A stretch of DNA of 64,000 bases, from positions 1-64,000 of the forward strand of contig NZ_JAMQOT010000013.1 of the NCBI RefSeq assembly GCF_029502005.1, read 5' to 3'. Numbering within the stretch: position 1 is the first letter of the stretch; each line of letters starts with the position of its first letter. Below the pieces are notes generated by a model that had not been told where the DNA came from, did no database searches, and worked only from the letters and a program-made list of their open reading frames with translations. Both the position numbers and the translations under genes were made by a program. Shown here in pieces: positions 120 to 25,635 of this stretch. This stretch comes from Natrinema salsiterrestre. Its GTDB lineage: Archaea > Halobacteriota > Halobacteria > Halobacteriales > Natrialbaceae.

Positions 120-379
120 ACAGTGCCGAATAAATATAATAGTAAAAAAATTGCTACGTTATTACTATTAACCATATTCTTTTAATGATACCGACTAATA
201 TGGGCTTATAGAGACTATAAATGTCTTAGAGTTCGTGAAAACCTCCACCATCTTTTGGTGTAATTTTGTAATAATGTAGTTTATATCAGTTACATAAGTT
301 TATAAAATGTCGTGTTATTCTCTTGCGGTGGAGTCACACAGTGACGAACGACGGTTGCTGGCGTGACCCGAAACACACC

Positions 380-1513
380 ATGCAAGAAAACGATAGAGAG
401 CAAGTGAGCAGACGAGGCGTCGTCAAAGGCATTGGCGGGCTCGCAGCGCTGTCGATGTCGAACGCGACGTTCGAGACTGCGCAGGCAGCGATGGATGGTC
501 CACTGCAAAGTGACCCTCATACCGCGGACACGTACCGATCGATCGTCGACGCGATCGTCCCACGGACACCGGAACTCGAGGACGAACTCGGGCCCGAGCA
601 CGTCCCCGGCGGTCTCGACGCCGAGTTAGAGAAGTTCCTCATCTGGGACTTCAACCACTTCCAGGAGATTCGCGCCGAGATGGTGACCGAGAACTCGCTG
701 CTCGATCTCTCGGGCGATTCTGGACCGGAGATGCCGCGGGCCATGTTCGAGGTGACGGTCGACACGACGGGGTTCAGCTCAGATCTGGACGCGATGCTGG
801 ACCTCGCGGACATCAGCATCTTGGATCTGGATCTGGACGGCGAAGCGATGGAGGACTACCTCACGTTCGGCCCGGTCGAACGGTTCGAGATCGGATTCGC
901 TGACTTCGACGACGCGACGGAGGGGCCGGCGGAGTTCGAACTGGCTGTCGAGACGACGAACGAATCGGTCCACCGGATCCTCCAGAATTACCCCTATGCG
1001 CCGACCTTTACGCTCGTGTTCGATCTCGTGGCCGCTGAGTTCCTCGCTCTCGGGAAGAACGAAGATCCGGTCTCGCCGAACGAGCAGTTCCCGGGCGGCG
1101 GGACGTTCACCCGCCTCTCTCGAGAGGACCGACTCCGGTGTCTCTGGACGATCGTCGACGGCGGTGCCATCGATACGATCGACGATCTCCTATCGCCGCT
1201 GGTGCCAGACGTCGGCATCCTGAAGTACGTGGTTATGGCCGTCAACGGCCTCCACGGCTTCGGCTACTACACCGAGTGGTCCGGATACGGGGACACGAAA
1301 ACGAACACGCCAAACGAGCGCGAAATGCAACGGGACCCGGCCGAGGTCCAGAGTCGTCAGCAGAGCGGCTATCCTGGCCCTGCTCCGGGATACGCGGCAG
1401 ACTGGCGTCACGCCGTTCCGGGCGGGTTCAAGGACCCGAAGGCCAAGAACCTGAATCTCCCGGACGACCTGACCGGCGATGATGTCATCGACGGGATCGG
1501 AGGTGACACCTGA
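380..1513 (+). CDS. Tat-exported gluconate 2-dehydrogenase subunit 3-like protein
   Basis: 377 aa from ATG 380; an in-frame ATG exists at 323, but the Tat signal (RRGVVKGIGG) sits at the usual place only from 380. The mature part begins with a segment like HTADTYRSIVDAIVPRTPEL, typical of the small subunit of membrane-associated gluconate/sugar dehydrogenases. The C-terminal third carries a GYYTEWSGYG segment and a Pro/Gly-rich tail common in haloarchaeal relatives. Its stop overlaps the start of the GMC flavoprotein gene (TGATG), so the two are translationally coupled and probably form one complex. The subunit probably accompanies the flavoprotein through the Tat pathway. The substrate is unknown; the family call is inferred from sequence style and gene pairing. 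Confidence 0.75.
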   Translation: MQENDREQVSRRGVVKGIGGLAALSMSNATFETAQAAMDGPLQSDPHTADTYRSIVDAIVPRTPELEDELGPEHVPGGLDAELEKFLIWDFNHFQEIRAEMVTENSLLDLSGDSGPEMPRAMFEVTVDTTGFSSDLDAMLDLADISILDLDLDGEAMEDYLTFGPVERFEIGFADFDDATEGPAEFELAVETTNESVHRILQNYPYAPTFTLVFDLVAAEFLALGKNEDPVSPNEQFPGGGTFTRLSREDRLRCLWTIVDGGAIDTIDDLLSPLVPDVGILKYVVMAVNGLHGFGYYTEWSGYGDTKTNTPNEREMQRDPAEVQSRQQSGYPGPAPGYAADWRHAVPGGFKDPKAKNLNLPDDLTGDDVIDGIGGDT

Positions 1514-3267
1514 TGAACGATCCCGACGTCGTCGTCATCGGTGCCGGTGCGGACGGTCCGGCCACCGCGTCACGACTCGCTCGTAAACACGGCCTCGACG
1601 TCCTCATCCTCGAGGGCGGCCCGTGGCACGGCAACGAACAGTGGCCCGAACCACACGCCGACGCAGGTGGGACGGTGAGTACGGATCCCGACGATCTCGA
1701 TGGAAAGTTACTGGACGATCAGTTCACCCATCGGGAAGCCGATGCGAACGACCCTACTCACGGCTACCTCCGCGTGGGACCGGCCGACCACTCGCGAGCG
1801 CCGTGGTTCCGGAATCTCCATCAGAACGCGTTCATCTGGCAGGTCGGCGCGGTCGGTGGGACCTCGCTCCACTACTTCGCGAACCACCCCCGGGCGTATC
1901 CGTACGCCATCGACGAGCAGGACCACTGGCCGATTTCGTACGAGGACCTCGTCCCGTACTATCAGCTCAACGAGGAAGTGACGAGTACCCAGCAGGCACC
2001 GATGACGGCCAAGGAGGAGGTGTTCATCGAAGGAGCGACGAACGCCGGCTACCCGCGTCTCGACACGAAGAACGTCACGGAGACGGGGTGGCGACCTCAA
2101 GCGAATGCCGTCGCAGTCCCCGGAGAGGAAACGGCGACCGACCAGCCCCTCGATTCCGACTACGAAGGATCGTTCAGCTACGACGACGGGTTCCGCGGGG
2201 ACACGCTCGTGGGCGACCACTTCCAGGGCTCGTCCACTCCCGTCGACGCGCCAGTTCGCGAGAAGGCTCGCAAATCCGCGAACGTGAGTTGGGTGCCGCG
2301 AGCGCTCGATACGAACGACGAACCCGAACCGGGGAACGTCGCGATCCGCCCGAACGCATTCGTCACGAACATCGAAGCCGAAGAAGGACTCGGAACGATG
2401 GAAGCGACGGGCGTCACGTTCCGTGACTCCTGGTCCGGTAGCTCACAAACGGTCTCGGCCGACGTCGTCGTCCTCGCTGCCGGCTGCATCGAATCGCCTC
2501 GGCTCTGGCTCAATTCGGGCCTGCCGGACGACGGCTGGGTCGGCAAGGGACTCACGACCCATTGGTTCGACTGGGTCGTCGGCGTCTACGACGACGACAC
2601 CGTCGCCGAGATCAACCCCGAGAACGAACATATGGACCCCTACGTGGGTCAGAACTCGGCAGTTCGGTTCGACAAACCCGGCGTCGGCGGCATGGAAGAC
2701 ATCGGCATGTCACCCGGGCTCGTCTCCTACGCTGACTACCTCTTCACCGAGGCCGGGTACAGCTTCGACACGCCGGTCGATCCCGGCGAGCCGTGGGACA
2801 CACGCGGCTACGTCGTCGGCGAAGAACTCAAGCGTCGGATGTCGGACTACAGGCAAACGAAGGCGCTCCTGATCCTGACTGACGACCTCCCGCGTCAGGA
2901 CAACGGCGTCTCGCTGGACAATACGTTCAGCGACGAACACGGACCGGTTCCGAAGGTCAAGTACGAACCTCACCCCGACGACGATGCGAAGCGCGATGAA
3001 CTCGCACGTATCGCCGCGAACATTCATCGCGAGGCAGGTGCTGAGCACGTCCACCGCTGTGAGTGGCCTCCGCTGTTGCTCCACATGCAGTCTACGATGC
3101 GAATGGGGGAGGTGCTCGACGAGAACGCCGAGGCGAAGAACGTCTCGAGGCTCTTCGTCGCGGACCACTCTGCGATGGCGAACGGGGTGGGTGGTCCGAA
3201 CCCGACCAACACCGGGCAAGCGCTCGCACTGCGGACTGCCGATCGAATCGGCGACCTCTACTTCTAA
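1513..3267 (+). CDS. GMC-family FAD oxidoreductase (sugar/alcohol dehydrogenase-like)
   Basis: 584 aa. The N-terminus has the FAD-binding Rossmann motif VVIGAGADGPATA (residues about 4-16) followed by an ILEGG strand end. GGTSLHY near residue 115 matches the second GMC signature region. The C-terminus has HMQSTMRMG and the FAD-binding GGPNPTNTGQALALRTADRI block. Length and motifs fit gluconate 2-dehydrogenase/glucose-methanol-choline flavoproteins that oxidise an alcohol group. It overlaps the upstream small-subunit gene by 1 nt. It has no Tat signal of its own, so it may be exported by hitch-hiking on the partner. The electron acceptor is not visible in the neighbourhood: no cytochrome c gene follows. 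Confidence 0.88.
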   Translation: MNDPDVVVIGAGADGPATASRLARKHGLDVLILEGGPWHGNEQWPEPHADAGGTVSTDPDDLDGKLLDDQFTHREADANDPTHGYLRVGPADHSRAPWFRNLHQNAFIWQVGAVGGTSLHYFANHPRAYPYAIDEQDHWPISYEDLVPYYQLNEEVTSTQQAPMTAKEEVFIEGATNAGYPRLDTKNVTETGWRPQANAVAVPGEETATDQPLDSDYEGSFSYDDGFRGDTLVGDHFQGSSTPVDAPVREKARKSANVSWVPRALDTNDEPEPGNVAIRPNAFVTNIEAEEGLGTMEATGVTFRDSWSGSSQTVSADVVVLAAGCIESPRLWLNSGLPDDGWVGKGLTTHWFDWVVGVYDDDTVAEINPENEHMDPYVGQNSAVRFDKPGVGGMEDIGMSPGLVSYADYLFTEAGYSFDTPVDPGEPWDTRGYVVGEELKRRMSDYRQTKALLILTDDLPRQDNGVSLDNTFSDEHGPVPKVKYEPHPDDDAKRDELARIAANIHREAGAEHVHRCEWPPLLLHMQSTMRMGEVLDENAEAKNVSRLFVADHSAMANGVGGPNPTNTGQALALRTADRIGDLYF

Positions 3268-3354
3268 TCTCTACACTCTGGCTTTGCTCTGTTCTCTGTG
3301 TACTGTGGTCGCGAATTCCACTTCGGTACAGAAATTCTCCGTTGCTGAAGTACT

Positions 3355-3466
3355 GGTCCTGTCCAATACGTTTTTACGATGCCGATGTCCCTGTCAATCT
3401 CAAATTTGGAACTCGAAGAGTGTCAATCACGCGGACAACTCCTCACGAGACTCTCTACCAGCAGGT
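3355..3466 (+). pseudogene. 5' remnant (promoter and first ~15 codons) of an AddB-like gene
   Basis: This stretch aligns almost base for base with 10790-10890, the upstream region and start of the AddB-like gene. It shares AACTCGAAGAGTGTCAATCA and the codons for SITRxTPxxTLYxQ. After the codon for the second glutamine the match stops. The sequence jumps into GCAGGTCGAAGGCCCGCC, which occurs again at 16337-16354 just downstream of the AddA-like gene. The junction is therefore the addB-addA flanks joined without the roughly 5.4 kb of gene body. Deletion from a second copy is the simplest reading. No function is expected. Confidence 0.8.
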
Positions 3467-3649
3467 CGAAGGCCCGCCAGATCGTCGGCGAGTCACGTCC
3501 GTTGCATCGACGAGATCGGGGATCGTGAACTCCGTTTCGTGGGCGTCGACCAGTAGACGAAGGATATCGTCTGCTGCTTCGATGCGAAATGCGTCAGTGT
3601 CCGCGTTTGGATACGCATCGATGCAGATCGTTATGTCTTGTTTCGCCAT
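3455..3649 (-). pseudogene. winged-helix/nucleotidyltransferase-type regulator, truncated and frameshifted
   Basis: From ATG 3649 the product begins MAKQDITICIDAYPNAD and continues through FRIEAADDILRLLVD and FTIPDLVDATDVTR. I recognise this N-terminal wHTH from haloarchaeal proteins that continue into a nucleotidyltransferase domain; that family call is from memory. After VTR the expected STIWRAFDL is present only in the next frame: one base is missing compared with the homologous piece at 16285-16418. The downstream coding part is replaced by the AddB 5' remnant. Only about 60 codons survive, so this is a non-functional stub. An alternative upstream ATG at 3760 gives an N-terminus unlike the family. 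Confidence 0.65.
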
Positions 3650-3763
3650 CTCAGACACTGTCTGATTTTGTGCAACGAGATAAAAAAGGTGGCCACGATC
3701 CACTGAGAGGCATACTACTATCAAATTTCTCATATTCGACAGCGGGACCAGGACCGCCACTAT

Positions 3764-3858
3764 CTAACTACCTGTCCCTCTAGGTCGTAGTGAACCCATA
3801 ATTATATTGATAACCGCTCCGCGGTACGACAGCGACCAACTGCCTGAAAGACGTGGAT
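3764..3858 (+). pseudogene. 5' remnant (upstream region and first ~17 codons) of the flavoprotein gene at 20405
   Basis: The sequence aligns with 20366-20458: TAACTACCTGTCCCTC, a GTAGTGA segment, then CCGCGGTACGACAGCGACCA and CTGAAAGACGTGG. The coding part reads PRYDSDQLPERRG in both copies. After that Gly codon the two sequences part completely. Together with the AddB remnant and the regulator stub just upstream, this strip reproduces the order of landmarks of the 10.8-20.5 kb block in about 500 bp. Confidence 0.8.
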
Positions 3859-3885
3859 TTCCGCGTTGCACCGCTGTGATGAGCG

Positions 3886-4626
3886 TCAGTTTGCTGTAGT
3901 TCGGCGTTCCGCAAACCAGCCACCAAGGTATCCGCCGAGACCGCCGAGTCCGGCCCCAAGGGCTGCGGAGACGACCAACGATAGAAGTGCCGTTATACCA
4001 ACAAAAGCCGCGTTGCCGCCCTGTTCAATAGCAAGAAGTCCGGTGGCTAATCCACCGACACTGAACAGGCCGACTATGAGCAGTGGGAGTAAGGGTAAGA
4101 CACCTGCAAGCGCCCCGACGCTGATCGTTCGATCAGACTCGCTCTTTTCTAGATACCCCGCGACAGCCCCGCCAAGGGCCGACGAGACCGGGATAAAGGA
4201 GAAAATTGCAGTAATGACTGCCCCGAGAACGGCAAACGAGCCGTACGAATTGACGGTGCCATCTGTCCGAGCCCGCCGGTGTGCGCGGTGTCTCACAACA
4301 ATATATCCGATCGCAAAGACGATCATTCCGAGACCCGTTATGAGCAGGCCTGGACCCATCCACGAGATGACCGCGTCAGTTACTTCAAGCGCTTCCGCGT
4401 CAGTAAGTTCAGTCGTACCGACTGTTACCGTCGTGGCTTCTTCTTCGATGGCCTGTTCGAGCAACTCTCGATCAATACCAAATACAAGGGCGGCCCCGAC
4501 TGCTACAAAGATCAACCCACTGAGCGCAATGAGGGCTCCTAAAAGCCAGTCAACGATCTCCGGGAGTGGGGTACTAGACGTCGTTGATCCGTCCACGTTC
4601 GAACTCTCCGATGGCGTAGAACTCAT
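3886..4626 (-). CDS. DUF5518-like multi-pass membrane protein
   Basis: 246 aa from ATG 4626; a further in-frame ATG at 4653 would add nine residues. A Ser/Thr-rich N-terminus is followed by one or two transmembrane helices (about residues 25-50), a polar loop, a helix (about 90-110), and a Gly/Ala-rich helical region at 125-235 with repeated GGLGGYLGG-type turns. The C-terminal Gly-rich segment resembles the small DUF5518 protein at 5662-6072. Haloarchaea carry many copies of such proteins; the function is not known. It stands alone, convergent with the scar region. It is bounded on the right by an AT-rich intergenic stretch (4627-5087) in which I see no clear gene. Confidence 0.6.
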   Translation of the reverse strand: MSSTPSESSNVDGSTTSSTPLPEIVDWLLGALIALSGLIFVAVGAALVFGIDRELLEQAIEEEATTVTVGTTELTDAEALEVTDAVISWMGPGLLITGLGMIVFAIGYIVVRHRAHRRARTDGTVNSYGSFAVLGAVITAIFSFIPVSSALGGAVAGYLEKSESDRTISVGALAGVLPLLPLLIVGLFSVGGLATGLLAIEQGGNAAFVGITALLSLVVSAALGAGLGGLGGYLGGWFAERRTTAN

Positions 4627-5087
4627 GACGCTTCGTTTTATCACGGCTCTCACACTTAAATCCGGTATTCATCCCTCAGAGAACGTCTGTACTCTATTTC
4701 TGGCAACGCACCATCCCTTCTGAGGACGGTGGGGAATAATCGCTGAGTACTGTCCGAGGAGTATCTATTTATCAGAGAATACGTATTGATACTAGAATTA
4801 TTTTTGAGACTGGTTGCTGTTGGAAAGCGTATTGCTGTGGTATCGTGAGACCATTCTCACCGGGCCATGGTGGCAGGCAACGAACTGCGCTCCCTCTCCA
4901 TCACACATCTTGGAGTGGGAACCTCGAACGTCACACTCGACGGACATCTCATGGTGGGATTCCACGTCCTGACGGGCATGGGGGAGGTCAAGACCGAGGC
5001 ACCATTCATCGAGCGAGCGACGGCAGTACAGTGGGACGACACCGGTGACGCACTAGGTATCCTCTACTACGTTCTGGGCGACGCCGA

Positions 5088-6420: not shown

Positions 6421-7449
6421 ATGACCGAGGATGACGACCTGTCCTCAACGACCTTTCTCCGACTTCTCTTGGTAGTGCTCGGGACGCTGTCCGTCGTCCT
6501 CGTATTGCCGTTTTTCCAGCCCGTGCTGGCGGGTGCATTACTGGCGTATCTGGTCGCCCCGATAAACGGTAGACTCTCACAGCGTCTGGGTGCGACCCTC
6601 GGCGCAGTCGTGACGATACTCGTCACAGTTATCGTCGTTCTCGTCCCGCTCCTGCTTATCCTCGCCGTCGCAGTGGACCAGGCGGTTTCGATGGCGAGCG
6701 GTGCCGAACTCCCCGACATCGCCGCCGTCGAAACGATCGTCCAGGAGCAGCTCGGACCGGATGCGGACCTCCAACGCCTCCTCGAGCCGTTGTCCGGTGC
6801 CGTCGAAACCGGTCTCCGCGGCGTTCTGGGGGGCGTCATCGGTATCGTCGGTGGGATTCCCTCGTTCGTCGTCGGCGTGGTGATCTTCCTGTTTACGTTC
6901 TACTATCTCTTACGAGACGGAGACGCATTCGTCGCGTGGCTCCGAACGGCCGCCCCGCTCGAGTCGGACGTTATGGATGAGTTGATAGAACGCACTGACG
7001 ACCTCCTCTGGGCGGCCGTCGTCGGCAACGTTATCGTCGCCGGCTTACAGGCGATACTGACCGTTCTGGCCTTTGTGGTCATCGGTTTCGAGAATATTAT
7101 CTTCTGGGGAGTAGTCACGTTCATCTTATCATTGCTTCCGCTCATCGGTGCGTCGATCATCTGGATTCCAGCTGTCGGCTATCTCGTGATCTCGGGAAAC
7201 ATTCCAGTAGCCGTGGGGCTACTCATATACGGCTCCGTCGTCGTTAGCGGCTCGGACAACTTCGTCCGACCGCTCGCAATGCAGCGCGGAGCGCGCCTCA
7301 ACTCTGGGCTGCTCGTTCTCGGCATCTTCGGTGGAGTGGCCGTCTTCGGATTCCTCGGGCTCTTTATCGGCCCGGTCATACTGGGGCTGTCGAAAGCCGT
7401 CGTCGATCTGCTGGTGGAAATACGAGGTACGTCTGGAGAGATCCGGTAA
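6421..7449 (+). CDS. AI-2E family transporter (PerM/UPF0118-type permease)
   Basis: 342 aa. Paired N-terminal helices (residues about 12-70) are followed by a soluble stretch (about 85-140). Helices at 145-165, 200-235, 235-270, 270-295 and 300-335 follow. The family signature region reads PLIGASIIWIPAVGYL, then GLFIGPVILG near the end. Proteins of this family export small molecules or act as Na+/H+ antiporters; the substrate cannot be deduced here. It is preceded by about 350 bp without a recognisable gene (6073-6420). A truncated paralogue lies at 8831-9484. Confidence 0.87.
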   Translation: MTEDDDLSSTTFLRLLLVVLGTLSVVLVLPFFQPVLAGALLAYLVAPINGRLSQRLGATLGAVVTILVTVIVVLVPLLLILAVAVDQAVSMASGAELPDIAAVETIVQEQLGPDADLQRLLEPLSGAVETGLRGVLGGVIGIVGGIPSFVVGVVIFLFTFYYLLRDGDAFVAWLRTAAPLESDVMDELIERTDDLLWAAVVGNVIVAGLQAILTVLAFVVIGFENIIFWGVVTFILSLLPLIGASIIWIPAVGYLVISGNIPVAVGLLIYGSVVVSGSDNFVRPLAMQRGARLNSGLLVLGIFGGVAVFGFLGLFIGPVILGLSKAVVDLLVEIRGTSGEIR

Positions 7450-8796: not shown

Positions 8797-8830
8797 GGCC
8801 TTGTTTGAACGCGTGATTTCACGGCTGTGA

Positions 8831-9484
8831 GTCCTCGATGGCGCGTTCGATGTCATCATCCTCTCGGCGATCATCTACACGGTATTCAACGTCGTCGCGC
8901 CCGGCGGACTGGCGATCCCGTCGGCGGTATTGTTCGCCGTCGTGACCGGCCTCTTCACGCTCGTCCCGCTCGTCGGCCGGTCGATCATCTATATCGCGAT
9001 TGCCGGGACCCTCGCGGTCCAGGCGGCGACGGTCGACCCGCGTCTCCTCTGGTTCCCGATCGCGTTCCTCGCGGTCATGATCGTCGCGTTCGACAATCTC
9101 GTCCGGACGTACATCCGGCCGTACCTCTCGGGGCGACTGCTCAACACTGGGCTCGTCATGTTCGCGTACCTGTTCGGCCCGCCACTGTTCGGCTGGTACG
9201 GTATCTTCCTCGGTCCGTTCCTGATGGTCTTCATCGTGACGTTCGTCCGAATGATCCTCCCTGTGTTGGCCGATCCCGAGTGCGAACGCGTCGAACTAAA
9301 TCCCGAACACACGCTCGACGAGTACGCCGAGAATGTTGGGGATCAGCAGAACGTTCCCCGTCCGAGGTGGATCGGACCGACATCGGAACGGGGTGAAATC
9401 TACCCACACAAAGTCTCGTCTCCGCTAGTGAGCGCCCCCGTCACCCATTTCAGCACGGACGTTCGTCGAGTGACACCGTGGTGA
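8831..9484 (+). pseudogene. AI-2E family transporter, N-terminally truncated
   Basis: The frame is closed by TGA 8828-8830. Downstream it runs open through FDVIILSAIIYTVFN, then FTLVPLVGRSIIYIAIAG and GWYGIFLGPFLMVF, the second half of an AI-2E permease. Compared with the 342-aa protein at 6421, roughly the first 170 residues are gone. No ATG or GTG precedes the homologous region in frame; TTG 8930 is the first possible start. Loss of the 5' part coincides with repeat B at 8762-8796, suggesting that insertion and excision of a mobile element removed it. The hydrophilic C-terminal tail of about 65 aa is intact. It is probably non-functional. Confidence 0.75.
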
Positions 9485-9912
9485 GAGACGGCCACTGCTT
9501 CGTCGGCGATCTGCGAGTTCGTATTCACCCGGGTTCGAGCCTCCGGGTGGAAAGCCTCTGTCCGGTCGCCAAACGCGAACGACGAGTTCTAAGAAACGCC
9601 GGTCTCTCGAGACCCCGTGACCGGCTATTCAGCCCGTCACGGACGATCACGATACATTCTCGAGCGAGTCACTCGTCAATATCACGATGGCGCACACTGC
9701 GGTGCTGGGTCGAATCGGGAGCGGAGCAACCGCAAGGGAACGCAGTACCTGTAAGAAACCGGAAAATGATCGCTATGTGATCTAAACCACATTAATTGCT
9801 TTCGCCGTCCTATTTCTCTGTAGAGAATCGCAACGATGGTGGAAATCGTACGCAGTAGTGAAAGTAGGGCATCTGGTCACGAGACTAAATCGGCACACCG
9901 CGAGTGCGAGCT
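9485..9912. other. intergenic stretch without a recognisable gene
   Basis: About 430 bp. A 100-codon open frame at 9478-9780 has a composition unlike haloarchaeal proteins (Arg/Ser/Pro-rich, no acidic bias) and I do not consider it coding. GGGTTCGAGCCTCCGGG at 9531-9547 looks like a tRNA T-arm, but no acceptor or anticodon arm fits around it. AT-rich sequence at 9780-9830 may hold the promoter of the next gene. Confidence 0.5.
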
Positions 9913-10545
9913 ATGAGTCTCCTCGAAGTTCTCCCGCTGGCTATCGTGATGATTGCGGGTCCGCAGATCCTCTCGCCCATCTTCCTCGCCACGAGCGAGA
10001 AGTGGCGGACGAACTCGATAGCATATGTCTTCGGTGCGTTCCTCTCGATCAGTCTCGTCGTCGTCGTCGCGTACCTCCTCGGGAACAGTTTCGGCGGTGG
10101 TGGCGGTCTGCTCGGTGCGAGCGCGAAGCAACTGCTCTACGTCGTCGTCCTCATCCTCCTCCTCTACGCGGCAGAGGAGACCTACCGAAAGCGGAATGTG
10201 ACGGAGCCACCAGCGTGGATGGGCAAGTTGACCACCGCGACACCACGGTTCTCGTTTCGACTGGGGTTTCTTCTATTGGGCGTCTTCCCGACCGATATCG
10301 TCACCTCGATGAGTGTCGGTACCTATCTCGCAGCGAACGGCGACCCGGTCACGGACGCGACTGGGTTTATCTTACTCACACTGTTCATCTTAGCGCTTCC
10401 GTCGCTCGCGGTGGTCGTGGTAGGCGAGCGAGCGGAAGCCGCGCTCCCGGAGATCCGCGACTGGATGAACGACAACTCCTGGATCATCTCCGAAGCAGTG
10501 ATTGCTCTCTTCATCGTTCTGACGCTGCAGAACCTTCTCGGATAG
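9913..10545 (+). CDS. GAP-family integral membrane protein (Sap/LysE-like)
   Basis: 210 aa from ATG 9913; GTG 9904 is three codons upstream. Six hydrophobic helices are visible: about residues 5-25, 35-60, 70-95, 115-140, 155-175 and 190-208. A cytoplasmic basic loop (EETYRKRNVTEPPAWMGK) sits after the third helix. The pattern, with DIVTSMSVG in helix 4, fits the GAP (Sap, sulfolipid-1-addressing protein) family within the LysE superfamily of exporters. The transported molecule is unknown. It appears monocistronic. The roughly 300 bp that follow (10546-10845) carry no gene and lead into the AddB-like gene. Confidence 0.65.
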   Translation: MSLLEVLPLAIVMIAGPQILSPIFLATSEKWRTNSIAYVFGAFLSISLVVVVAYLLGNSFGGGGGLLGASAKQLLYVVVLILLLYAAEETYRKRNVTEPPAWMGKLTTATPRFSFRLGFLLLGVFPTDIVTSMSVGTYLAANGDPVTDATGFILLTLFILALPSLAVVVVGERAEAALPEIRDWMNDNSWIISEAVIALFIVLTLQNLLG

Positions 10546-10845
10546 GTGCGTACGAACTCACAAACCATCACCCGGAAGGACGCTCAGCCACAACACTGGA
10601 AAGGTACTGTTCGCCTCTCGGTGGAATCCCTCTTCTGTATCGCACTGTGAGGAGCGTCTATTTTTTGCCATAAACCAACGCCAATGCCTGTCTCGACGCC
10701 GCTGATCAAGGATACTAACACAGTTTCCGTCACGTCATCACCAGTACGCTGCCTCGCGGTTTCCGTCGTCTGGATAGTACCATTCCGTCTAACACGTTCT
10801 GAAAATGCCGATAGTCTTATCTATCCTAAATTGTGAACTCGAAGA

Positions 10846-13431
10846 GTGTCAATCACGCGGGCAACACCTCTCGATACTCTCTACGAGCAAATCTCGGACT
10901 ACGACCTCGTTCTCGTTCCCGATGCACCGCTTGCCAGTGCGCTGAACCGTCGATTGGATAGGCCTCACTTCGGCCCGTTCGCGGTTCCACCTCGGCGTCT
11001 CGCGGCAGGTCGACGCGAGACGGCCGAGGATCGAACTGCGTTCCTCGAGCTCGTCGAACACAGCGACCTCGATTGGAAACGCAGCGCTTACGCGATTGGG
11101 AACATCCTCCAGTGCTGGGAGCATCAGGGGCGGCTGGATTCCATCCTCGAGTACAATGGCTACGCCGACGCGGTGACCGAAGAAGCGGTAGCGTATATCG
11201 ACGACCTCGAGACGACGTCGGGACGACTGACCGAGTACCGGATCGATGCCGATACAGACGTCGCGGTGGTGGGTGAAGACCAGCTGACCGCGCTCGAGCG
11301 ATCGATACTCCCGGCGGAGTACGATACCTACAGTCCATTCAGCGACCAGGCGTTCGAGCGACCACCGTTCCGGATCTTCGAGTCGACGTCGGCGATCGTC
11401 GACACAGTGGTCGATAGTATCGCGGGGAACGATTCCGAGAACGTCGCAGTCGTCCTCGACCAGGCGAGTCCGTATTCGACACTCGTGGAATCCGCGTTCG
11501 AATCGGCCGAGATACCGTTCTATGGCGGCCCTGGCTTTATCGACGATTCGGACCACCGAGCGTTCTGCCAGTTGCTCCGCGTGGCACATCGCGGAACGGA
11601 TACCGAGGTCCGCGACGTCAAACCGGTTCTGCGTACACTCGGCGTCGATCTCGCCCTCGAACACGACGAAAAACGGCTGTCCGACCTCGATATCGCTGAG
11701 ATCGAGTGGGTTCGCGATTTCTGTGACACCATCGAAAATCGGACCGTCGACGAGTCGATCACGGCGTTCGAGCAGCGAACCGGGTGTTCGATGGACGCCT
11801 TCCGAGACGAAGTGGCCGCATTGTGTCTCGACGACGAGTTCGTCACCGAGGAGACGGTCGATCGACTCGAGTTTTATCTGCAGACCTACGAGGTTCCGGT
11901 CGACCGAGAAAACGAGGGTGTGCTGCTGGCCGACGCGAAGTCGGCCGCGTACGTCGATCGGCCCGTCGTGTTCTTCCTCGGGCTCGACGAGAACTGGACG
12001 CACTCCGCACCGCGCCGTCCGTGGGTCGATCGCGATGCCCAGTACACCAGAAACATCCAGCAGTTCCAGCTGCTGTTGCAGAGCGGCGTCGAGCAATATT
12101 ACCTCGTTCAGGACACGAGTGGCGGGTCTCCGGTTACGCCGTGTCTGTACTTCGAGGAACTTCTGGAGGAAGAGTTCGACCGCTTCAGTGACCTCGAGTC
12201 GATACAGCACGCAAAAGCGCCCCGCGAACGAGGGACCGGATTCGAGAAAGAACCCGTCGACGCTACCGCGACCGAGGTGGAGACGATTAGCCAGTCCAGT
12301 CTCAGTACGTACGTCAACTGTCCGCGCGATTACTTCTTCAGTCGTCTCGTCGACGGCCCCGACAAGGACTATTTCGAAGAAGGAAATCTGTTCCACGATT
12401 TCGCCGAGTTCTACGTCGAGCACCGAGATGCAGTCGACGACGCGCTACTCGACGAGACGGTCGAAGTGATGCTCGAGGAAACGCGGCCGTTCGTCAGGCG
12501 CGTCGACCGGAAGACGCGACGAACGAAGTACCGTGTGGGGCTCGAAACGATCCGCGACTTTTTGGATGAAAACGTCCCGACCGACGGGACCTTTCTCACG
12601 GCCGAAAGCGGCTGGGGATCGAACTTCTTCGCCGAGCGGTACGACCGACCGATCGAGACGCCGATCACCGAGCGGTGGTTCGAGAACGACGATCTCGGCC
12701 TGAAGGGGAAGATCGATCTGATTCACGGCCCGACCAGACTCGTCGATCACAAGAGCGGCAGCCGAAAGCGAGCTTCCCAAGTCGTGACGAACTCGGCGAT
12801 AGATCCGCCCGCCGAGTCGCCGAACTTCCAGGCGCTGCTGTACCTCACACACTGGCGAACGGAACGGCCGGAGGACGAACTGGAGTTCACCTTCTTTCAC
12901 TTCCTCGAGACGCTCGACGACGTCGTCGCCGGTGACGCGGACCTCGAGGACACGCTCACCACGGTCACGTACCACCCGACGTCGTTCGAAGGACACGCTG
13001 AGTCACGAGCGGTGTTCGAGGATCTCCGCGAGGACGGCGCTGGGAACTGTCGAAAGACGCTCGAGAAGGTCACGTACGACGACTACAGAGCGGTCTTCGA
13101 AGTGACACCGATGCCGGACACGCGGGACAGTGACGAACTCATCGAGTCGGAGTTCGGCCAAGTGTTGATTGAGCGGATGAAGGAGTGCGTCGGTGACTAC
13201 AAGTACGTCTCCTCGGGGTGTAAGCAACTGATGCGCGAGCTGATGCGGGTTCGGAGTCGCAACTACTTCCGCGAGGACCTCGACGCTTTCGAGGAGTTCG
13301 TCGACGATCGGATCGCAGAACTGAATCGCCGGCGTCGCGGTGAGGAGCGCTTCCCGGTCGAGGGACTCGCCGGCGAACCCAACTACCGCTACGTGGACAA
13401 CCGCGATCTCCTGCTGAACACTGATGACTGA
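10846..13431 (+). CDS. AddB-like protein with PD-(D/E)XK nuclease domain
   Basis: 861 aa, GTG start. This codon is supported because the remnant at 3420 conserves it together with the preceding CTCGAAGAGT. The N-terminal ~450 residues look like an inactivated superfamily 1 helicase core, as in AddB: it opens LVLVPDAPLASALNRRL, and I see no Walker A. The C-terminal third is a RecB-type nuclease. SQSSLSTYVNCPRDYFFSRL opens it at about residue 483, GKIDLIHG at 622 and LVDHKSGS at 633 supply the D...DxK catalytic residues, and FQALLYLTHW follows as the QxxxY-like helix. The Cys of YVNCP and later Cys (GNC, KEC, SGC) could ligate an Fe-S cluster as in AddB, but spacing alone does not prove it. It overlaps the helicase gene by 8 nt. 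Probable role: end processing of double-strand breaks or of invading DNA. Confidence 0.8.
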   Translation: MSITRATPLDTLYEQISDYDLVLVPDAPLASALNRRLDRPHFGPFAVPPRRLAAGRRETAEDRTAFLELVEHSDLDWKRSAYAIGNILQCWEHQGRLDSILEYNGYADAVTEEAVAYIDDLETTSGRLTEYRIDADTDVAVVGEDQLTALERSILPAEYDTYSPFSDQAFERPPFRIFESTSAIVDTVVDSIAGNDSENVAVVLDQASPYSTLVESAFESAEIPFYGGPGFIDDSDHRAFCQLLRVAHRGTDTEVRDVKPVLRTLGVDLALEHDEKRLSDLDIAEIEWVRDFCDTIENRTVDESITAFEQRTGCSMDAFRDEVAALCLDDEFVTEETVDRLEFYLQTYEVPVDRENEGVLLADAKSAAYVDRPVVFFLGLDENWTHSAPRRPWVDRDAQYTRNIQQFQLLLQSGVEQYYLVQDTSGGSPVTPCLYFEELLEEEFDRFSDLESIQHAKAPRERGTGFEKEPVDATATEVETISQSSLSTYVNCPRDYFFSRLVDGPDKDYFEEGNLFHDFAEFYVEHRDAVDDALLDETVEVMLEETRPFVRRVDRKTRRTKYRVGLETIRDFLDENVPTDGTFLTAESGWGSNFFAERYDRPIETPITERWFENDDLGLKGKIDLIHGPTRLVDHKSGSRKRASQVVTNSAIDPPAESPNFQALLYLTHWRTERPEDELEFTFFHFLETLDDVVAGDADLEDTLTTVTYHPTSFEGHAESRAVFEDLREDGAGNCRKTLEKVTYDDYRAVFEVTPMPDTRDSDELIESEFGQVLIERMKECVGDYKYVSSGCKQLMRELMRVRSRNYFREDLDAFEEFVDDRIAELNRRRRGEERFPVEGLAGEPNYRYVDNRDLLLNTDD

Positions 13432-16270
13432 ACCCAACACGCAACAGCGAGAACTCATCGAAAGCACTGAGGGCACCTATCTCGTCGACGCCGGTGCCGG
13501 AACCGGGAAGACGTTCGCCGTCACCCGGCGCTACGCGAATATCGTCGAGCAGTCGGGGGTCGAACCGGACGATGTCCTCCTGGTCACCTTCACGAACAAT
13601 GCCGCGACCGAAATGAAAGAGCGAATCGTCGGCCAGTGCCAGTACGGAATGCGCGAGCTCGCCGACGCGCCGATCCGGACCTTCCATTCGCTGTGTCACG
13701 ATCACCTTCAAGAGCACGGTCACACTGCCCCAGCGTATCTCGGTATCGACGACACGATCACCGGCTCGACCCGGATTGTCAGCGACGACGTCGTCGAGGA
13801 CGGGCTGTTTCGGGAGTTTATCGACGGCTTCAGCGATGACAATCCCGCGTATGACGACCTGTTTCGAGCGATTTCCGCTCCGATGGAACTGCTCGGCCTC
13901 ATCGAAGAGTTAGCTTCGAAGGGAGTGTTCCCGACTGCCGACGGCTGGTATCGCAACGGAGAGCGCTATCTCGATGGTAACTTCGACGCGTTCAAACGCC
14001 TCTTCGACGATCGCAACGAACCGCGGAATGACGGAAGCAAACAGTCGCGGCTGCGATCGAAGCTCTACAGCTACGGGAAGAACAAGAACTACCTGCCGGC
14101 CGCTCCGGACAAGGCCGAGATCCGAGGCGACGGGAAGCAGGTTCCGGACGCAGTCGCTTGGGCGGCGTTCGAGGAGGACCGGAGTGATCTGAAGGGGTTC
14201 GTTCACGACGTCTACTACGACTATCTCAGATTCGCCCTCCGGCGCAATTACCTGAACTTCGGCTTCCTCCAGCTGTTCGCGTTCGTCCTGCTCTGTGAGA
14301 ACCACGAACTCCGCGGCGAGGCCGCCTTCGAGTACGTGATGGTCGACGAGTTCCAGGACTCGAGCGAGATTCAGTTCAAACTCGCACTGCTCCTGGCCGG
14401 GACCGACAACGTCTGCGTCGTCGGCGACTGGAAGCAGAGCATCTACGGCTTCCAGTACGCCGACGTGGACAATATCGTCGAGTTCGAAACGCGGTTGAAC
14501 GGGTTCGCCGAGGAGTTGAATCGGGACGCCGATCGCGTTCGCTTCGACACGACCGACGTGACCAGAATCGAGTTCGTCGAGAACTACCGATCGACGCAGT
14601 CGATCCTGGATTTCTCCGAACACGGGCTCCTTGTTCCGGCAACCGGCAGCGAGGAGATCGACGTCGAGGACACGCGAGACCGGATCGTCTCGCTCGAATC
14701 GAACGCCGATCACGAGAACACGACGATCGAAGCGATACAGAGCGAGGCGGAAGACGAGGCGATCCTGGCCAAAGTACAGGAAATCGTCGGAAACGGCGAC
14801 TATCGAGTAGAAGACGACGATGGGAACCTCCGAGTACCGGAGTACCGCGACATCGCAGTTCTGACTCGAACGCGCGACTTCGGTCGCGAACTCCTCGAGA
14901 CGGCCGAGGAGTACGGAGTTCCCACGGCGTACGAGGGTGGGATCGAACTGTTTCGGACCGATCAGGCGAAACTCCTGCTGGCGTGGCTCAGGATTCTCGA
15001 GAACGACCTCGATCGCGGGTGGGCCGTCGTCCTCGAGGAAGCCGGATACACGCTCGACGAGATCGATCGGATTCTGGATCGTGGAGACTATCCCGAGGAC
15101 ATGACCGCCTTCCGTGAGGAATTGGGGGCGATGGAGACGCTCGGTGGGATTACACGGCGTGTCTTCACTCGATACGGGTACGACGGGGAGACTGCCGACG
15201 TCATCCTGCACACGATTCAATCGATCCACAGTACGACGACGATGACGCAGGGCGATCTCATCCGTGTGATCGAGCGCAGCATCGACGCGGGGAGTACCCA
15301 CGAGGTCAGCGCGAGTGCGGGAGCGAATTCGGTGACGGTCCAGACGATTCACTCCGCGAAGGGACTCGAGTACCCGATCGTGATCCTCGCGAATATGAAC
15401 AGCGGCCGCTACCCGCCGTCCGGTGGTGGCAGTAGTTCCATCTCCTATCAGGACCCAGTTGGCCTCCGGCAGCGCAAGGTGTACACCGAAGCGGCACAGG
15501 GCCACCCCCACGTCTACGACAATTGGCGCTCGGACGTGCTTCGTCGCTGTCTTCCCCGCGACTACGACGAGGAGCGACGGTTGCTGTACGTTGCCATCAC
15601 ACGGGCCGAGAGCCACGTCGTCTTCACCGCGGGTGACGACCCCAATACGTTCCTCGAGGAGCTTCCCGTGGATATCGAGTCGGTCGTGCCGGACCCTGAG
15701 ACGGTTGCAGTCGACCAGAGTGAACAGCCCCACCTCGAGATCGACATTCGAGACCCGGAGGGACCGGTTCGGTATTCGCCACACTCACTGATGGACGAGG
15801 ACGTCTTCGAAGCGGTCGAGGCGGGGCGAGGCCTCGAGTTCGGCTCTCGCGTTCACGATTTCGCCGAGCGATATGCGTTGGGCGAGGCCGTCGAACCCCA
15901 GAGCGAGGACGAGAAACGCATACGAGATCTGTTGGATTCGATGGACGGTGAACTCAGGGTCGAAGAGAGCGCGTATCTCCCGCTCGAGGTCGATGGGGAA
16001 CGAGTGAGTCTTCACGGTATCGTCGACCTGGTTCACGTGACTGGGGATACGATCGAGATCGTCGATTACAAGACGGATCGCGGGCGGCATGCAGAATCCG
16101 AATATCGCACGCAGTTGAGCGTCTACTGGCATGTGCTCGATGCGGTGTATTCCGATCGGGAGATCGCGGCGAGTATCTTCTACACGGCGGACGGTGAGCG
16201 GGTGGCGGTTGCGCCGTTCTCGAGGGACGACCTCCGTGAACTCGTTCGCGATCAGACCGAGCGGATGTGA
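13424..16270 (+). CDS. AddA-like UvrD/Rep helicase with C-terminal PD-(D/E)XK nuclease
   Basis: 948 aa. Q-motif NTQQRELI (5-12) is followed by Walker A AGAGTGKT (23-30), motif Ia LVTFTNNAATEM, and Walker B VDEFQDSS (about 308). Motif III is VVGDWKQSIYGFQYAD, motif IV region ENYRSTQSI, motif V TVQTIHSAKGLEYPIVILA, and motif VI LLYVAITRAE. A RecB-type nuclease closes the protein: LEFGSRVHDFAERYALG, LHGIVDLVHV (about 866) and EIVDYKTDRG (about 880), then QLSVYWHVL. The order is that of AddA, though shorter than typical bacterial AddA. Coupled to the AddB-like gene (8-nt overlap), it should form a two-nuclease helicase complex. The pair replaces nothing obvious in archaeal repair and sits next to McrBC, so an anti-invader role is possible. 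Confidence 0.88.
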   Translation: MTEPNTQQRELIESTEGTYLVDAGAGTGKTFAVTRRYANIVEQSGVEPDDVLLVTFTNNAATEMKERIVGQCQYGMRELADAPIRTFHSLCHDHLQEHGHTAPAYLGIDDTITGSTRIVSDDVVEDGLFREFIDGFSDDNPAYDDLFRAISAPMELLGLIEELASKGVFPTADGWYRNGERYLDGNFDAFKRLFDDRNEPRNDGSKQSRLRSKLYSYGKNKNYLPAAPDKAEIRGDGKQVPDAVAWAAFEEDRSDLKGFVHDVYYDYLRFALRRNYLNFGFLQLFAFVLLCENHELRGEAAFEYVMVDEFQDSSEIQFKLALLLAGTDNVCVVGDWKQSIYGFQYADVDNIVEFETRLNGFAEELNRDADRVRFDTTDVTRIEFVENYRSTQSILDFSEHGLLVPATGSEEIDVEDTRDRIVSLESNADHENTTIEAIQSEAEDEAILAKVQEIVGNGDYRVEDDDGNLRVPEYRDIAVLTRTRDFGRELLETAEEYGVPTAYEGGIELFRTDQAKLLLAWLRILENDLDRGWAVVLEEAGYTLDEIDRILDRGDYPEDMTAFREELGAMETLGGITRRVFTRYGYDGETADVILHTIQSIHSTTTMTQGDLIRVIERSIDAGSTHEVSASAGANSVTVQTIHSAKGLEYPIVILANMNSGRYPPSGGGSSSISYQDPVGLRQRKVYTEAAQGHPHVYDNWRSDVLRRCLPRDYDEERRLLYVAITRAESHVVFTAGDDPNTFLEELPVDIESVVPDPETVAVDQSEQPHLEIDIRDPEGPVRYSPHSLMDEDVFEAVEAGRGLEFGSRVHDFAERYALGEAVEPQSEDEKRIRDLLDSMDGELRVEESAYLPLEVDGERVSLHGIVDLVHVTGDTIEIVDYKTDRGRHAESEYRTQLSVYWHVLDAVYSDREIAASIFYTADGERVAVAPFSRDDLRELVRDQTERM

Positions 16271-16284
16271 CGGATTGTACGCAT

Positions 16285-16418
16285 ATGGGAGTGCGGTACG
16301 GTGTCTCTCGGATCCGACCGGCACCGATACTCTCACGCAGGTCGAAGGCCCGCCAGATCGTCGAACGAGTTGAGTCCGTTGGATCGACGAGATCCGTAGC
16401 AGTGACGTAGACACTCAC
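16285..16418 (-). pseudogene. fragment of the winged-helix/nucleotidyltransferase-type regulator
   Basis: The minus strand encodes DLVDPTDSTRSTIWRAFDLR followed by RIRETPYRTP, the DNA-recognition helix and wing of the wHTH domain of which 3455-3649 holds the N-terminal half. The base-level match to 3453-3520 includes a 27-bp identity around GGTCGAAGGCCCGCCAGATC. The N-terminus (MAKQD...) is absent. In its place, 40 bp upstream, the McrB gene begins. The nucleotidyltransferase half is also missing because addA ends at 16270. It is a relic that fixes the orientation of the ancestral locus. Confidence 0.65.
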
Positions 16419-16456
16419 ACAGAACTATGTGTCACTGGCCGTAACCATGGATCAGG

Positions 16457-19003
16457 ATGTACAGCGCACTTCGCGTTGGCGAGTATGTTTTTGATACATG
16501 GGCACTACAAACGGCATTTGGCAGTATTTCTCTCGCGACGTCGGAGGCCAAGGGCGAGTACAGCGAAGAAAACCTCAGAGCACTTCTCGAACTCTTCTGT
16601 GACTGGGGGCCGGCACGGGGAACCGCGTCGTACGCCTCGGCTGCGGATTCGATAGACGAACTCTCACCCGCAGAACAACGCGATCTGTACGAACGGTGTT
16701 GTACCGAACTGGCTCGAAACCTCGAGGCCCAGTACGGATACGATGCTTCCGAAAGCGACGTCCGTCGATTTGCCGAGACACTTGCTATCGACGAGACCAA
16801 CGCCGACGTCGCGGATTTCCTCCTGACGTATCTGTGGCGCTTCTCGCGACAACTCCACGAGTTTGATCCCAACACGGACGGGGTCGATGATGCCCAACCC
16901 TTTCTCAACGCGGTTCGAAACCTTCCGGAGGAGTATCAATCGTCTAAACGCGCTCAGTACGAGGGAACGAAGAAAATCAAGCAGGTTCGCTACCAGATTC
17001 TCGAGGCCTTCCACGACGACGGCGAGGTCCCGATCGACAAGCTCGAGGATATCAAACGGGAAGAAAACGAGAAATACGACAGGAACATCCACCAGAACTG
17101 GCGAAATTATACGATCCTCGGCCAGCTCTATTTCGACTTTTACAAGCCCCGGATCGATGCGTATCTCACGCGTCTCGTCGAGTATCTCGCTACAGAACTC
17201 GGCGTTTCGGAGTTCGAAACTCATACGGTTCACTTCACGGATCCGCAAGCGTACCTGTCCGATTTCGCTTGGATGGCAATATATCCAGAGGGTGACGGAG
17301 ACCAACGAGAAAGATACCAACTGTATCTCGGTATCCACTGGAACCGACTTTCGTACGGACTCCACGTCGGTGACAACATCCGAGGAGATGACTGGAAAAC
17401 GCACCGTGATCTCGATCAGCTCAACGAGATTGAACATGCGTCGATCGCGACGGTCGTCGAAAAACTCCGTGCTGTCAAGTCCGATTTCCGTTCGCTCAAT
17501 GGCTTAGACGGTGGCGACGATCCGGTGGAAAAGCCGTCACGTGCCGACGAGATCGCACGACAGTTAGAGAGCTCGAAGCAGGCGGTGTTCTACGGCCCGC
17601 CCGGCACCGGAAAGACGTACATCGCGAAACGCTTCGCAGAATGGTGGGTGCAGGAGCGAACCGATACGGAACCGATCGACGAACAAATACAGACGGTCAC
17701 GTTCCACCCATCGTTCGCCTACGAAGACTTCATGGAAGGCCTCACGGCCACCGCGAACAACGGAAATGTCACGTACGAAGTCGAGGAAGGCGTCTTCAAA
17801 CGGGTCACAGCGACGGCTCGAGCCGCCTATCTGCGCGCCCGGCAAAACGACGAATCGCCGCCACCGTACGTGCTCATTATCGACGAGATCAATCGTGGGA
17901 ACCTCGCGCAGATCTTCGGTGAGACGATCACGCAATTAGAAGCCGACAAACGTCTCGACGAAGAGAACGAAACCGCCGTCCAACTCGCGCACTCGGGCGA
18001 GTCGTTCGTGATACCGCCGAACCTCTATCTCATCGGGACGATGAACACGGCCGATAGATCGATCGCGCTCGTCGATGCAGCACTCCGACGACGCTTCCGT
18101 TTTCTTGCGTTCCCACCGACGTTCGATGACGTTATTGCCGCATATGATCTTCCGGACGATCCGCTTCAGGACGGTGATGCGTTCGAGGCACTGCTCTCGC
18201 TCTCCGTCCAGTCACTTCGAGAGTTGAACGATCGAATCACGACGATCGCGGATCTCGGGAAGGGGAAACAGATCGGCCATGCCCGCCTGTTCGGACTCAC
18301 GACCACCCAAGAGATCCGGGATGCCTGGCGGTACGATATTCTCCCGCTCCTCGAGGAGTACTACTTCGGTCAGTTCGATCGAATTCGCCAAGAGTTGTTC
18401 GACGGCAGTGGCGACGAACTGTTCGACTGGGACCGAAAGCAGATTCGAGATTTCACCGAGCAGGAGCTTGCGGATGCCCTGAGTAATCTGGTCGGAGATG
18501 ACGTCGAACTCTCGTATTCCGCAGCCGATTCGGACACCGATCCGTCGACTGACTCGCGAAAACAGTGGGACGAGGAGTCGTTCTTCGACGAACTGGAGTC
18601 GGAGTACGACCCCGAAATCGTTGCCGTGTACAAGGATCTGTACGACTTCGCGGAGAAGGAAGCGGACGAGACCGATTACGGAACCGGCGTCAGGACGGGA
18701 GCGATGCAGTTCTACTGGGACGAGTTCAACGACGGTGACTATCTCGTGTTCGAATCACGAACCAACGGCACCGTCCAGTTTCGATTCTGGGGACGCAGCC
18801 AGTACGACGACTACGTGTTCGAAAACTTTGCTGAAAACATCGCGTCGGTTCTCGAGGACCCTATCGATGCCAAATATATGCTTTCGGAGGAGTTCGAGGA
18901 TCTCGAGATTCCCGCCGAGCGACTCATCGATGACGATGCCAGAGAACAGTTCAAAAATACTGTACGGGAGTTCGTCAACGACTGTGCGGCAATGACACAG
19001 TAG
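16457..19003 (+). CDS. mcrB: McrB-like AAA+ GTPase, modified-DNA restriction subunit
   Basis: 848 aa. The N-terminal region (about 1-170) is unassigned. Residues about 170-350 resemble the DUF3578/MrcB N-terminal domain (segment FAWMAIYPEGDGDQ and YQLYLGIHWNRLSYGLHVG), which in relatives reads modified bases. The AAA+ motor follows: Walker A GPPGTGKT (about 380), Walker B VLIIDEINRGN (about 471), and the McrB hallmark MNTADRS (about 528) with ALRRRFRF. The C-terminal region (about 690-848) has EFNDGDYLVFESRTNGTVQF, a second folded unit. The gene is 8 nt upstream of mcrC. Together they form a GTP-driven nuclease that cuts DNA carrying modified bases. The start could lie at ATG 16457 or at the ATG at 16447, which is out of frame; 16457 is retained. 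Confidence 0.88.
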   Translation: MYSALRVGEYVFDTWALQTAFGSISLATSEAKGEYSEENLRALLELFCDWGPARGTASYASAADSIDELSPAEQRDLYERCCTELARNLEAQYGYDASESDVRRFAETLAIDETNADVADFLLTYLWRFSRQLHEFDPNTDGVDDAQPFLNAVRNLPEEYQSSKRAQYEGTKKIKQVRYQILEAFHDDGEVPIDKLEDIKREENEKYDRNIHQNWRNYTILGQLYFDFYKPRIDAYLTRLVEYLATELGVSEFETHTVHFTDPQAYLSDFAWMAIYPEGDGDQRERYQLYLGIHWNRLSYGLHVGDNIRGDDWKTHRDLDQLNEIEHASIATVVEKLRAVKSDFRSLNGLDGGDDPVEKPSRADEIARQLESSKQAVFYGPPGTGKTYIAKRFAEWWVQERTDTEPIDEQIQTVTFHPSFAYEDFMEGLTATANNGNVTYEVEEGVFKRVTATARAAYLRARQNDESPPPYVLIIDEINRGNLAQIFGETITQLEADKRLDEENETAVQLAHSGESFVIPPNLYLIGTMNTADRSIALVDAALRRRFRFLAFPPTFDDVIAAYDLPDDPLQDGDAFEALLSLSVQSLRELNDRITTIADLGKGKQIGHARLFGLTTTQEIRDAWRYDILPLLEEYYFGQFDRIRQELFDGSGDELFDWDRKQIRDFTEQELADALSNLVGDDVELSYSAADSDTDPSTDSRKQWDEESFFDELESEYDPEIVAVYKDLYDFAEKEADETDYGTGVRTGAMQFYWDEFNDGDYLVFESRTNGTVQFRFWGRSQYDDYVFENFAENIASVLEDPIDAKYMLSEEFEDLEIPAERLIDDDAREQFKNTVREFVNDCAAMTQ

Positions 19004-19011
19004 GGGAGCTC

Positions 19012-20259
19012 ATGGCATCCACAGAACAGGGTCCGTTGCGGACGATCGAACTCGCCGAACACGAGACGTCACACCCGCTAGACCTTCCAGAAGCGGTGCT
19101 CGAGACGATCGATTCCAAACTCAACCGATCGAAGCACCGCCTCACGTACGAGTACACGGCTGACGGACAGGTACGCCTCCGGACATCGTCGTACGTCGGT
19201 CTCGTCTCGCTCCCGGAGGGGACGCAGGTTCGGATCCGGCCGAAGGCCGCAGGTGGGAACTTCCTCCGGCTGCTCCTCTACGCACAGGGCGCCTCATCAG
19301 CGACGATCGATTCGACTGTCGAGGCGCTTTCCGGTGACCTATTCCTCGACGCGATTGGTGCGCTGTTTCTCGAACGTCTGGAGGAACTCATCCAACGCGG
19401 CCTCGGGAAAGACTACCGGACACAAGAGTCTCGAGAATCGCATCTCCGCGGGCGGCTCGATGTGCAGCGCCAACTCTCGCGGGGGGACGTCGTGACGACT
19501 CAGTTCGACGTCGAATACCAGGAATTGACACACGATACGGTTCCGAATCAGGCCGTGCTCTATGCGACCCATCTCCTGACACAGCTCGTCGACGAGCAAT
19601 CTCTTCAGGGGAGTCTCCGACAACGAGAGCAGCAGCTCAGACGAGACGTCACGCTCCGTCCCGTCCCGTTATCCGAACTGGACGCAGTCCACCTCGACAG
19701 GCGAACTCAATATTACGAGGACATCCTTCGACTCGCCGAACTCGTGATCCAGTCGACGTTCGTGGATAACTTCCGGTCGGGGACGCGGGAGACATACGGG
19801 ATGCTCGTCAATATGAACCGGATCTTCGAGGCAACTGTCGAACGCGCTGCCTGCGACGCGCTCGAGGGTACTGCGTGGACGATGGACGCACAGTCCCGGC
19901 TCGATCGGCTCGTAACCGGGGGGAACCCGTCGATAAACATGTATCCGGATTTCGTTATCAGCGACCCGAACGGAAATCTCGAACTCGTCGGTGATGCGAA
20001 ATGGAAAACAGGACGGCCGAGCCAATCCGATATCTATCAGTTGACGTCCTATCAGTTAGCGGACGACGTTCCCGGATTGCTTCTTTATCCGTCACAGGAC
20101 GGTTCCGTTGAAACCGAGTATCGAGTTGACGATCGGTTGCCGCTCCACCTTCGAGAGTTGCCGACCGGAGCGGATGTATCTAATTTCAGTTCGTTCGCAA
20201 ACAGGCTCTCCGACGTTTTGAAGCAGGAACTAGAAGCGGTCGGAATGAATATCAGCTAA
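19012..20259 (+). CDS. mcrC: McrC-like PD-(D/E)XK nuclease subunit
   Basis: 415 aa. An N-terminal beta-rich domain (VRLRTSSYVGLVSLPEG then VRIRPKAAGGNFLRLLLYA) is typical of McrC, which docks on the McrB hexamer. The GLGKDYRTQESRESHLRGRL region is also McrC-like. The nuclease centre is INMYPDFVIS (D about 311) and LVGDAKWKTG (D-x-K at about 328-330), then DIYQLTSYQL. It is transcribed with mcrB (8-nt gap). The stop at 20257-20259 is followed by 145 bp with no gene before the flavoprotein. Confidence 0.9.
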   Translation: MASTEQGPLRTIELAEHETSHPLDLPEAVLETIDSKLNRSKHRLTYEYTADGQVRLRTSSYVGLVSLPEGTQVRIRPKAAGGNFLRLLLYAQGASSATIDSTVEALSGDLFLDAIGALFLERLEELIQRGLGKDYRTQESRESHLRGRLDVQRQLSRGDVVTTQFDVEYQELTHDTVPNQAVLYATHLLTQLVDEQSLQGSLRQREQQLRRDVTLRPVPLSELDAVHLDRRTQYYEDILRLAELVIQSTFVDNFRSGTRETYGMLVNMNRIFEATVERAACDALEGTAWTMDAQSRLDRLVTGGNPSINMYPDFVISDPNGNLELVGDAKWKTGRPSQSDIYQLTSYQLADDVPGLLLYPSQDGSVETEYRVDDRLPLHLRELPTGADVSNFSSFANRLSDVLKQELEAVGMNIS

Positions 20260-20404
20260 CGAAGTTCTCGTATTAACAAACCGAATGGGCATCTGGTGTC
20301 ATTTCGATAGACACAACCACCATTGCAGGCCATGAAAGTTGGCCAGTAGGTGCGTGATAGTCACTAGCTAACTACCTGTCCCTCGAGGCCGTAGTGACCT
20401 CATC

Positions 20405-21763: not shown

Positions 21764-21937
21764 TGGATGATCTATTTCACTCGACACGTGGGGTCAGATA
21801 GAATATCCCGACACCGTATCGGCTCTCTCGAGGATTCGAGGAAGTCCTCGAGCGGAAAATAACGGCTCTGAAACTGCTCAGTGATTGCGGCAGCGGTGTC
21901 ACCAGATTCTTCAGCCAGAGCAGCGACGGTGACCGTA

Positions 21938-23374: not shown

Positions 23375-23383
23375 CCTCGTTGA

Positions 23384-24639
<1,256 letters not shown>

Positions 24640-24705
24640 ACCTTAAATGTAGAACGAATGTTTCTTAAACGTTGGGAGGAGGACTGCCACTGTCGCGTGG
24701 TTTGA

Positions 24706-24755
<50 letters not shown>

Positions 24756-24844
24756 TATTTTGTATAAACGTGAGCTATATATGACCGGATCGGATTCGTC
24801 CCTGTACGGAGGATTCCCCTATTCTACGCGTCGAGTTTACGACT

Positions 24845-25510: not shown

Positions 25511-25635
25511 AACCGAGCCGAATCCCCCTCGATCACGAATATCCCTCTGTATTCTCTCCCCCGACTTAAAGAACGATAGCTATCGGTCGCTATCGGGAGT
25601 AAAACGATTCTAGTTAGCCCGTAACGTGGGAGTGG

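Follow-up and report, generated by a model that had tools for sequence, protein, structure and literature searches.

The window analyzed here, a 64,000-nucleotide stretch of Natrinema salsiterrestre DNA, contains a small locus (the mini-locus, 3357–3856, ~510 bp) that is very probably what remains, after decay, of another copy of a gene cluster made up of addB–addA, a nucleotidyltransferase gene in reverse orientation, and a flavoprotein gene. The better-preserved copy, the main locus, occupies 10784–21763 of the same window. Of the two origins originally proposed for the mini-locus, duplication of the locus followed by loss of its cargo is the one borne out, by the collinear order of the matches, substitutions found only in the two copies, pseudogene damage, and a junction with microhomology. 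The remnant itself most likely does nothing.

Matches between the mini-locus and the main locus

The original prediction was that three landmarks of the main locus recur in the same order in the mini-locus. Comparison of the window with itself by blastn confirmed this. The matched segments are short (72–107 bp), with identities of 81–87% and E values from 1e-14 to 1e-25: 3357–3463 aligned with 10784–10889 (E 2e-15), 3446–3517 with 16325–16394 (86.3%, E 3e-14), and 3758–3856 with 20362–20460 (E 8e-25). All three are on the plus strand and collinear, and they account for three of the five self-matches in the window at E ≤ 1e-4. The first and last correspond, as predicted, to the addB promoter plus the first ~15 codons and to the flavoprotein upstream region plus the first ~17 codons. 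When the whole genome (4.79 Mb, 27 contigs) was searched, the landmarks had no copies beyond the three parent places; therefore they are not repeats dispersed within this genome, a finding that also eliminates a MITE.

The middle landmark had been described as the sequence that follows addA, and this description did not hold. The main-locus segment 16299–16394 is a scrap of a separate minus-strand HTH-nucleotidyltransferase gene, located between addA and mcrB and beginning 28 bp past the addA stop codon, so the 27-bp identity after addA reflects a shared gene fragment and not an addA trailer. In the mini-locus the upstream region and first ~66 codons of this gene fill 3455–3705. The mini-locus therefore contains three gene starts, instead of two starts plus a trailer. 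The segment 3455–3705 has 91% DNA identity to a plasmid of Natrinema sp. SYSU A 869 (G022) and 70–86% to many other haloarchaeal genomes. The matches, over 3460–3705, are to the start of a minus-strand gene that is intact in locus L021, where it encodes 229 aa with the domains HTH_11 and NTP_transf_2. The gene is widespread on haloarchaeal replicons, and many of its plasmid copies are annotated as "nucleotidyltransferase domain-containing protein."

On two plasmids (L149, 7032–8202; L150, 7029–8202) the HTH-nucleotidyltransferase gene is followed by a gene of unknown family, and the two overlap by 8 bp; this two-gene layout resembles that of toxin-antitoxin pairs. The downstream gene in L149 had no match in Pfam or PADLOC, so it was not established that the nucleotidyltransferase is an MNT antitoxin paired with a HEPN protein.

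Table 1 Features of the mini-locus, the main locus, and the adjoining gene (G019 and G022, genomes used for comparison)
Feature	Position	Strand	Evidence
addB remnant: upstream region and first ~15 codons, GTG at 3423	3357–3463	+	80.6% to 10784–10889; ~77% to G022 addB start
Putative deletion junction, addB to nucleotidyltransferase, at CGAGACTCTC...AGCAGG	3446–3463	+	Parental 10-mer CGATACTCTC at 10872–10881 and 16325–16334
HTH-nucleotidyltransferase 5' part (~66 codons, start near 3661 or 3649) and upstream region; truncated, frameshifted	3455–3705	−	DNA homology
Flavoprotein remnant: upstream region and first ~17 codons, ATG to ATT	3758–3856	+	86.9% to 20362–20460; 79% to G019 orthologue
DUF5518 gene adjoining the remnant	3886–4653	−	PF17647; relative on G019 contig C2, 87% DNA identity from 3872 on
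addB and addA, full, with promoter region (intact parent copy)	10784–16270	+	PDDEXK_1, UvrD families
addB; addA (main locus)	10846–13431; 13424–16270	+	
HTH-nucleotidyltransferase scrap, 96 bp (main locus)	16299–16394	−	83–84% DNA identity to four congeneric copies
mcrB–mcrC (main locus only)	16457–20259	+	AAA_5, McrBC families
Flavoprotein gene (20405–21763) and upstream region (intact parent copy)	20283–21763	+	FAD_binding_3; 95% DNA identity to G019 from 20283

In the main locus, McrBC occupies the place of the 5' half of the nucleotidyltransferase gene. Each gap in and around the mini-locus matches (3268–3360, 3700–3760, and 3850–3885) was compared with McrBC and other main-locus sequence, and no match scored above shuffled sequences; two marginal matches to unrelated parts of locus L020 were taken as chance among 42 tests. 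Nothing in the mini-locus corresponds to McrBC, so the label of a miniature AddAB-McrBC locus claims too much. McrBC may have been ancestral and then lost from the mini copy, or it may have been inserted later into the main copy.

Probable common descent of the two copies

Alignment of the nucleotidyltransferase segments (63 columns) showed two substitutions common to the mini and main copies and absent from 25 relatives: at one site the copies have A against G in every relative, and at the other T against A or G. Among the 27 sequences, every other pair had at most one such uniquely shared state. Because of these substitutions, and because the linkage was found only here, the two loci are unlikely to have been assembled independently. 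The aligned sequence is short, and it gives moderate support to common descent of the mini and main copies.

We also compared both outer landmarks with their closest relatives in unrooted three-way alignments. For the flavoprotein start, the identities were 86.9% (mini-main), 86.9% (main-G019), and 78.8% (mini-G019); for the addB start, they were 82.2% (mini-main), 83.5% (main-G022), and 76.2% (mini-G022). By these values the mini copy sits at the end of a long branch; they do not root the split between the copies, and they fit a local duplication and a transferred sibling copy alike.

A special case of the preferred explanation is that the mini-locus was acquired separately, as an allele of the cluster from a related species, for example together with its plasmid DUF5518 neighbor, and then eroded. 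We consider this possible but doubtful. The mini-main divergence (13–18%) equals the divergence of the main copy from other species over the same stretches, and the adjoining DUF5518 gene resembles one on contig C2 of G019, the contig that also has the closest flavoprotein region; the homology of this flank to G019 starts at 3872, just past the flavoprotein remnant. However, the extra divergence could be obtained by neutral decay alone, the linked cluster is known from no other genome, and the two substitutions are common only to the copies in this window.

Linkage of the modules in other genomes and setting of the mini-locus

Searches at the level of the genus, the family (125 genomes), and the order (392 genomes) found no other genome in which any two of the landmarks are linked. 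In G022, the addB start and the nucleotidyltransferase gene are both present, on different replicons. The G022 addAB genes have 84% DNA identity to the window over 10805–16270, ending exactly at the addA stop codon, and their surroundings differ. Likewise, the flavoprotein region (20283–31707) is 95–97% identical to contig C2 of G019, where the upstream flank is different. None of 33 named loci had a nucleotidyltransferase or flavoprotein gene beside the AddB relative. An intact form of the proposed ancestor (addAB, nucleotidyltransferase, and flavoprotein without McrBC) was likewise found in no genome, which counts against a second cluster copy as the source of the mini-locus. In a literature search, haloarchaeal AddAB loci were not the subject of any title or abstract.

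The G022 addB gene (L031, 10159–12739) is the closest relative of the addB in the window. It appears to contain two frameshifts, which could be real decay or sequencing error; its addA is intact.

In two other genomes (G023 and G020), the genes of 256–3267 are followed, after ~0.3 kb, by the sequence of 62792–64000; therefore the window contains an insertion of ~59.5 kb that begins just after 3267. This island (3268–62790) has the mini-locus at its left edge and the main cluster inside. Its flanks, a GMC oxidoreductase block on one side and a lipoprotein-like gene on the other, are near neighbors in two congeners (L172 and L173). No tRNA gene was present at the island edges in the window.

The position at the end of an island, and the presence of addAB and McrBC in the main copy, would fit the other origin originally proposed, an integration hotspot with conserved shoulders and exchanged defense cargo. 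The searches of the genus, family, and order, in which two landmarks were linked in this genome alone, largely refute this explanation, and we regard it as very improbable; what were taken for shoulders are three gene starts, and elsewhere those genes are found apart. Equally slight is the chance that a recurrent process in this lineage duplicates defense clusters and strips them to their starts, and that the short stretches of homology left behind act as handles by which new cargo, McrBC for one, later recombines.

Three further features of the window were noted. A minus-strand IS605 OrfB/TnpB-like gene (23371–24764), with 86% DNA identity to a copy in L033, is cleanly missing from the otherwise 95–97% identical G019 region. 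Positions 1–127 are a dispersed repeat that occurs many times across the genus and also where several contigs of this assembly end; it is probably an insertion-sequence terminus at which the assembly broke. Several fragments of 8827–10545, beside an AI-2E transporter gene (6421–7449), are 79–89% identical in DNA to places in congeners; with its long non-acidic reading frames, this stretch looks like a pseudogene-rich patch.

The first junction, decay, and the survival of gene starts

In the main locus, addB (CTCGATACTCTCTACGAGCA) and the nucleotidyltransferase scrap (CCGATACTCTC...) have the 10-mer CGATACTCTC in common. At the mini-locus junction, CGAGACTCTC at 3446–3455 is followed by nucleotidyltransferase sequence; that is, a direct repeat is present at both parental breakpoints and one copy is present at the junction, the pattern that a repeat-mediated deletion would leave. 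Such sharing is rare by chance: of 3000 shuffles, 2 gave two 45-bp windows with a common word of at least 10 bp, and of 3000 window pairs drawn at random from this stretch of DNA, 6 did. Deletion between the repeat copies in the main-locus layout would remove 5,453 bp.

The remaining sequence is damaged. In the alignments, the flavoprotein start codon has changed from ATG to ATT, and the nucleotidyltransferase gene is cut after ~66 codons and has a frameshift caused by a 1-bp deletion. This lost start, frameshift, and truncation, together with the long branch, fit a neutral remnant.

We infer the following series of events. A second copy of the cluster would have arisen by segmental duplication or come in as a sibling copy. 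A first deletion, from one 10-bp direct repeat to the other, would then have removed addB from codon ~15, all of addA, and the nucleotidyltransferase gene up to codon ~66, and a second would have removed the body of the flavoprotein gene from codon ~17. The remainder would have drifted neutrally since then, accumulating small mutations. The segment 20283–20361, which is common to the main copy and G019, was not detectable in the mini copy; its absence calls for an additional small deletion or for an original join that differed.

Conservation of start regions without gene bodies had been considered unusual for random deletion, but it can be accounted for without selection. The middle gene is opposite in orientation to its neighbors, and the starts are the pieces beside the two deletions. 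Because the nucleotidyltransferase and flavoprotein genes diverge, the piece between the deletions contains both of their starts; the addB start lies in the piece to its left. Selection on the starts and promoters, which might serve as decoy operators or give rise to a regulatory RNA, would also leave start regions as all that remains; but the geometry and two deletions suffice, one start codon and one frame have been lost, and the arrangement is conserved in no other genome searched, making this the least probable of the explanations and scarcely credible.

Comparison with known systems

The mini-locus is an ordinary genomic fossil, with little significance beyond this genome. It is perhaps a record of how the AddAB locus once looked, with the nucleotidyltransferase 5' end beside the flavoprotein promoter region and without McrBC. 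It also provides a clear within-genome case of short-repeat deletion in a haloarchaeon and shows that gene orientation alone can yield conserved starts.

Compared with the HTH-nucleotidyltransferase genes of haloarchaeal megaplasmids, the mini-locus copy is alike in its first ~66 codons and upstream DNA (up to 91% identity), but it is truncated and frameshifted and does not have the adjoining downstream gene of L149 and L150. Like other decayed segmental duplicates (pseudogene clusters), the mini-locus is collinear, partial, frameshifted, not conserved, and has lost a start codon; it differs in being unusually small and in having a geometry that preserves three gene starts. Deletions between direct repeats of 10–19 bp have been documented in Haloquadratum walsbyi (PMC3119063). 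In both cases short direct-repeat deletion in a haloarchaeal genome left truncated genes. The Haloquadratum deletions were inferred from two strains, whereas the one proposed here is inferred from two copies in one genome, and, unlike the Haloquadratum case, the repeat at the mini-locus junction has since been altered by one base.
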